Shown here: positions 51,260 through 51,792 of the stretch, piece after piece | Layout of the letters: each line of letters starts with the position of its first letter | How positions within the stretch are numbered: the stretch's first letter is position 1 | Assembly: GCA_019114005.1 (NCBI GenBank) | Contig: DXGH01000012.1 | Coordinates: 19,249 to 83,248, forward strand | Source of the DNA: Candidatus Acetatifactor stercoripullorum | Lineage (GTDB): Bacteria; Bacillota; Clostridia; Lachnospirales; Lachnospiraceae | DNA: 64,000 nucleotides | Direction of reading: 5' to 3' | The notes under the pieces: generated by a model | Seen by the model: only the letters and a program-made list of their open reading frames with translations | Database searches by the model: none | Told to the model about the DNA's origin: nothing | Translations under genes and position numbers: made by a program

Positions 51260-51302
51260 GACATTCTCCTTAGTCTGATATTTGGATTTGAGAAGAACCG
51301 AT

Positions 51303-51351
51303 AAAAAAACCCACGGACAACAGGCACGCCAAAATGCCTTTGTCCGTGAGT
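51303..51351 (-). terminator. Premature terminator in the mntP leader
   Basis: On the minus strand ACTCACGGACAA (51351-51340) pairs with TTGTCCGTGGGT (51320-51309), with an inner AGGCA/TGCCT stem, followed by a T tract (A run 51303-51309 on plus). It lies between the promoter and mntP, about 45 bases before the start codon. Confidence 0.8.
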
Positions 51352-51396
51352 CTCATTATCGCAAAACTGCTTCGGTAATACCAGATGAAAACATCA
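51352..51396 (-). promoter_or_regulatory. Possible metal- or ligand-sensing leader of mntP
   Basis: About 45 bases between the expected start of transcription and the leader terminator. It contains a small GATG-TTTT-CATC hairpin and a second fold ATTA...TAAT enclosing GCAGTTTTGC. I could not recognise the yybP-ykoY manganese riboswitch core here, so the class is open. Confidence 0.4.
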
Positions 51397-51401
51397 TTAT
51401 G

Positions 51402-51430
51402 TTGATACTACCACAGCCGGGGGCTGTCAA
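51402..51430 (-). promoter_or_regulatory. Promoter of mntP with palindromic spacer
   Basis: On the minus strand TTGACA (51430-51425), 17-base spacer, TATCAA (51407-51402). The spacer holds ACAGCC-CCC-GGCTGT, a 6+3+6 palindrome that may be an operator. Confidence 0.65.
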
Positions 51431-51524
51431 CTACTCCCTCACAGTGTTTATTCATCTCAGTTTTTACATGATACCCTAATTGATATTTTTTGTCAAGAAG
51501 ATTTGTAAAAAATGGGAAAATGAA

Positions 51525-51576: not shown

Positions 51577-51792
51577 TTAAGCCACTACAGTGACATTGGT
51601 AGCACGGATCTTGCTGCTGTTCTGAGGATCGCATTCGGTGTCGAAGGTAACCTTCTGGCCTTCCTCCAGGGACTTAAAGCCCTCAGCATTGATTGCGGAG
51701 AAGTGTACGAATACTTCCTCTCCGGTGGCGTCATTGGTAATGAAGCCATAACCTTTCTGTGCATTAAACCATTTTACTGTACCGTTGTTCAT
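51577..51792 (-). CDS. Cold shock protein (CspA family)
   Basis: 71 aa single cold-shock domain, an RNA chaperone. RNP1 ([12 protein letters not shown]) and RNP2 (EVFVHFSAI) are intact. AAGGAGGTACC precedes the ATG. The leader is about 150 bases and carries an AU-rich hairpin with a T tract. Cysteine 54 and the PQNSSK loop are small deviations from the usual GPQAANV. Confidence 0.96.

Follow-up and report, generated by a model that had tools for sequence, protein, structure and literature searches.

A yybP-ykoY-class leader RNA is very probably a manganese-sensing transcriptional ON switch of mntP in Candidatus Acetatifactor stercoripullorum

In the X. oryzae riboswitch of the yybP-ykoY class, loop L3 has the sequence ACA48UACU, in which A48 (the counterpart of A41 in L. 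lactis) provides the Mn2+-specific contact through its N7 (PMC6754395). In L. lactis, Mn2+ stabilises helix P1.1, preventing formation of an overlapping terminator (PMC11087558). None of the papers we searched names both yybP-ykoY and Lachnospiraceae. Here we analysed a 64,000-nucleotide stretch of Candidatus Acetatifactor stercoripullorum, hereafter the window, and conclude that the leader of its mntP gene is very probably a Mn2+-sensing riboswitch of this class that acts as a transcriptional ON switch. Read 5' to 3' on the minus strand, the locus comprises a promoter, the aptamer (51444-51344), an intrinsic terminator (51351-51303), a ribosome-binding site and mntP (Table 1). The original prediction of a strong terminator before mntP was borne out by the stem of about -27 kcal/mol with its U6 run and by the Pfam assignment of the gene at E 8e-53; the mntP product also matched the NCBIfam MntP model (E 1e-37), yet under that model's cut-off. 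The terminator, whose stem has a bulge, was missed by a simple scanner.

The upstream part of the leader differs from what had been proposed, namely a consensus promoter at 51430 and about 45 bases between promoter and terminator. The TTGACA hexamer at 51430-51425 was rejected as a -35 box: no convincing -10 follows at a suitable distance, the scanner did not list it among its promoters, and it is intact in only two of nine aligned leaders, others reading for example TTGGCA or TTAGCA. It lies inside the aptamer. The best promoter is found 66 bases further upstream, at 51496-51468(-), and an equivalent TTGACA-17 promoter stands upstream of the aptamer in all nine leaders of the window's clade. 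Because this is the promoter, the leader is about 200 nt long rather than a terminator preceded by some 45 bases, and the element runs past the right edge of the region first singled out (51430); judging from the promoter position, transcription probably starts near 51461. A cold-shock-protein-like gene (51577-51792, same strand as mntP) lies directly upstream of the promoter, and several relatives likewise have a similar coding sequence ahead of mntP (e.g. L185, L186, L188, L199).

Once the true promoter is used, the core yybP-ykoY motifs, which had been reported as missing, are all present in the leader (GGAGUA...UCAACAUAAU...CUGG...GAGA). Without the distal half of the terminator, the RNA is predicted to fold as a four-way junction, P1 to P4, in which GGAGUA...GAGA (L1) and ACAUAAU (L3) are unpaired. 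The aptamer stretch alone folds moderately better than shuffled sequences (z -2.0). The ACAGCC/GGCTGT palindrome is real (51427-51413), although it does not sit in a promoter spacer as previously thought, being instead the RNA hairpin P2. Within the window's clade the short P4 is 100% paired and has one double change. By alignment, A51400 in L3 corresponds to the Mn2+-binding adenosine of the characterised aptamers (A48 in X. oryzae, A41 in L. lactis).

Table 1. Features of the mntP locus (window positions).
Feature	Positions	Strand	Evidence or remark
Promoter TTGACA-17-TATCAT	51468-51496	-	11/12 consensus matches (promoter scanner)
P1 (switch helix, P1.1), 5' strand CUGUGAG	51438-51444	-	pairs with 51344-51350; fold and covariation
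L1, 5' side GGAGUA, invariant	51432-51437	-	unchanged in 51 relatives and in RF00080 members above the cut-off
P1.2, GUUG with UAAU	51428-51431 with 51355-51358	-	97% paired; 3/4 pairs doubly changed in relatives
P2 hairpin, ACAGCC-CCC-GGCTGT palindrome	51413-51427	-	fold and covariation in relatives
P3.1, 10 pairs	51403-51412 with 51374-51383	-	8/10 pairs doubly changed in relatives
L3 loop ACAUAAU	51396-51402	-	alignment; PMC6754395
P3.2 hairpin GAUG-UUUU-CAUC	51384-51395	-	fold and relatives' alignment
P4 hairpin GCA-GUUU-UGC, completes four-way junction	51361-51370	-	fold
L1, 3' side GAGA, invariant	51351-51354	-	alignments with relatives and RF00080 members
P1, 3' strand CUCACGG, doubles as terminator 5' side	51344-51350	-	folding
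Intrinsic terminator (expression platform)	51303-51351	-	stem -27.1 kcal/mol, then U6
Ribosome-binding site AAGGAG	51266-51271	-	sequence
mntP, manganese efflux pump, 186 aa	50699-51259	-	Pfam PF02659 (Mntp), 178.7 bits, E 8e-53

MntP was sought in 150 genomes of the family and was present in 125, and the upstream regions of more than 100 loci were read. The nearest named relatives of the window's MntP place the organism close to Acetatifactor (Lachnospiraceae). A recurring element was found that runs GGGAGUA, P1.2, P2, P3.1, UCAACANNNU, P3.2, UGG and P3.1', and continues with P4 or a short linker, P1.2' and GAGAC. Alignment of relatives' mntP leaders, which the original prediction had suggested as a check, yielded a conserved, covarying structure both in A4, our structure-guided alignment of 51 relatives' leaders with the window left out, and within the window's own clade. 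In A4, 92.5% of pair cells were standard pairs, 21 of 30 pairs were doubly changed, and covariation scored 0.556 compared with 0.250 for shuffled alignments and no more than 0.118 when partners were slid; as A4 was fitted to a related structure, its pair counts lean towards that structure. The RNAalifold structure of our first alignment (A2) had misplaced gaps in P3.1, and A4 was used in its place. Six leaders from the window's clade, aligned independently with MAFFT, had all 193 of 193 cells paired and eight doubly changed pairs, P4 included. We then built a covariance model, R2, from A4 without the window; its match to the window, at 51446-51341(-), scored 48.5 bits, with E 8e-11 for the 64 kb searched, A4 itself having been aligned with a model, R1, that counted the window's leader among its 47 training sequences. 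Across the genome at E<=10, R2 found nothing besides the mntP leader; elsewhere, 22 of the 41 genus genomes searched gave a match, as did 56 of 196 at the level of the order and 29 of 200 across the phylum.

The Rfam model of the class, RF00080, found nothing in the window at the cut-off score, nothing in the leader at E<=10 and nothing at the leader when the whole genome was searched, the gathering score of 45 bits being a detection criterion and not a structural definition. None of the 196 order genomes passed this cut-off, 26 of them having weaker matches, and six of the 200 phylum genomes did. Four RNAs over the RF00080 cut-off also matched R2 (L282, 36.0 bits; L284, 30.5; L285, 30.8; L286, 40.4), and when aligned with the window they had GGGAGUA, UCAACAUA, CUGG and GAGAC in common with it, most differences being compensated changes within helices, altered loop lengths and a single base of L3. 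The leader of one relative aligned to RF00080 over the full model at 28.1 bits (E 2e-6). Since R2 matches RNAs that RF00080 accepts, and since the motifs are shared, the missed cut-off reflects a limit of the model and is not counter-evidence. The confident RF00080 match that had been envisaged as removing the novelty of the locus was thus not obtained, and homology is established through R2, the doubly matching RNAs and covariation. On these sequence comparisons the mntP leader is a further member of the known yybP-ykoY Mn2+ riboswitch class, with a canonical junction and canonical binding loops. The idea of a compact, divergent manganese riboswitch is therefore supported as to class by the held-out model, the shared RNAs and covariation, but the RNA is not unusually compact. 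Sub-threshold Rfam matches on the leader to ctRNA_pND324, snoU61 and microRNAs were judged to be chance.

All seven bases of the P1 3' strand (51350-51344) double as the beginning of the terminator. In transcripts ending from 51344 to 51322 the probability of P1 was 0.97-0.99, falling to 0.88 at 51316 and 0.02 at 51312, values that describe the thermodynamics of truncated RNAs without ligand and not kinetics. Folding of the entire leader is far more favourable than that of shuffled sequences (z -5.15), and with the complete terminator the fold shifts to the terminator form. In 47 of 52 leaders tested, the P1 3' strand likewise lay in a hairpin ending at a T run. Because one strand serves both P1 and the terminator, P1 stabilised by Mn2+ should prevent termination, making this an ON switch. 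By analogy with the characterised relatives, from which we infer that Mn2+ binds and which way the response runs, RNA polymerase would start near 51461 and make the aptamer first; given sufficient Mn2+, L1 and L3 would dock with the ion between them, N7 of A51400 helping to hold it. Docking would stabilise the switch helix P1 and withhold 51350-51344 from the terminator, so that mntP could be transcribed and excess Mn2+ exported. When Mn2+ is lacking, the growing terminator would capture the P1 3' strand and transcription would stop ahead of mntP. Most likely, then, ample manganese is required for mntP to be transcribed.

The aptamer stands before genes for MntP, Na/Ca-exchanger (PF01699), GDT1 (PF01169) and P-type ATPase proteins in relatives, and in several genomes it occurs two or three times, with copies ahead of genes of the Na/Ca-exchanger, GDT1 or P-type ATPase type (L121-L169). 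The presence of one aptamer before four unrelated families of cation exporters fits a cation as ligand, and MntP fits Mn2+. This also suggests that the Na/Ca-exchanger, GDT1 and P-type ATPase proteins export Mn2+ in the relatives that bear the aptamer. ABC-transporter reading frames were seen downstream of it at L126 and L141. Among the 20 nearest named mntP leaders, 12 gave no aptamer match (L184-L186, L188, L190, L192-L196, L199, L200). The aptamer seems to have been lost repeatedly from mntP leaders, and L025, L048 and L192, which retain a promoter together with broken pieces of aptamer or terminator, look like remnants.

It could be argued that the same fold is tuned to another divalent ion (e.g. 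Cd2+, Ca2+, Fe2+, Co2+/Ni2+) or to several ions, given that L3 in the window is one base off that of X. oryzae, that it varies among relatives (CAUACU, CAUAAU, CAAUCU, CACAAU), and that a streptococcal member has been reported as Mn/Ca-sensing (PMC11434433). Yet the Mn2+-selectivity adenosine is invariant in all aligned relatives, and the L. lactis L3 is more different still (UCAAUUC) and nonetheless senses Mn2+ (PMC6754395). Moreover, the gene here is mntP, and those in relatives encode MntP, GDT1, Na/Ca-exchanger and P-type ATPase proteins. We therefore regard tuning to another ion, or to several, as improbable.

More improbable still are two explanations that dispense with the yybP-ykoY class. 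A metal-responsive repressor or MerR-type activator bound to ACAGCC/GGCTGT in a promoter spacer, with an incidental terminator, would account for a perfect palindrome after a TTGACA hexamer, but the poor conservation of that hexamer (intact in two of nine relatives), the conserved promoter upstream and the behaviour of the palindrome, a covarying hairpin whose sequence and length vary, speak so clearly against it that we give it almost no weight; a protein operator at the palindrome was accordingly rejected in favour of P2. Four-way junctions also occur in NiCo riboswitches, so that a czcD-type (NiCo/Fe2+) or other known metal riboswitch might be considered. However, L1 and L3 match the yybP-ykoY motifs base by base, and neither the NiCo (czcD) Rfam family nor any other of this kind matched the leader at E<=10, which makes this reading very unlikely. 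A Mn2+-sensing yybP-ykoY riboswitch thus accounts best for the locus.

Most Lachnospirales copies in A4 (e.g. L059, L006) are without P4, having a linker of four to five bases between P3 and P1.2 and hence a three-way junction; the window's clade retains a short P4. One could speculate that the Lachnospirales aptamers, mostly P4-less, form a structural subclass whose docking and metal selectivity are unlike those of the crystallised four-way forms, with the window's clade as an intermediate or a regain, but we consider this rather unlikely. Another sub-threshold match on the window's leader, SSRC10 (Rfam RF02617), proved to be a related RNA. PMC3675131 describes SSRC10 as an sRNA of S. pyogenes that lies ahead of a putative calcium transporter. 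A member with 67.8 bits to RF02617 scored 59.9 bits with R2, and the gene after it is P-type ATPase-like; loci of this type are L291 (1498-1606), L292 and L293. RF02617 thus appears to be the terminated leader of a yybP-ykoY-type riboswitch, although SSRC10 ('sRNA 10'), unlike the window's RNA, is without P4 and is entered in Rfam as an sRNA without a clan link.

In summary, control of mntP in a gut Lachnospiraceae lineage gains a probable ligand and mechanism where Rfam reports nothing. Used at its cut-off, RF00080 misses the Mn2+ riboswitch in every sampled genome of the order, including the 56 in which R2 matches. Like the L. lactis yoaB and X. oryzae aptamers, the RNA in the window has a P1-P4 four-way junction, an L1 of GGAGUA/GAGA and the invariant adenosine in L3, a P1 strand in common with an intrinsic terminator, and a Mn2+ exporter downstream. 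It differs from them in the sequences of P1 and P1.2 and in its short P2 and P4, and its L3, ACAUAAU, differs from the ACAUACU of X. oryzae by one base. The E. coli mntP riboswitch belongs to the same class and regulates the same gene family (PMC9603457, PMC11647493) but is described as translational, whereas the expression platform in the window is an intrinsic terminator.
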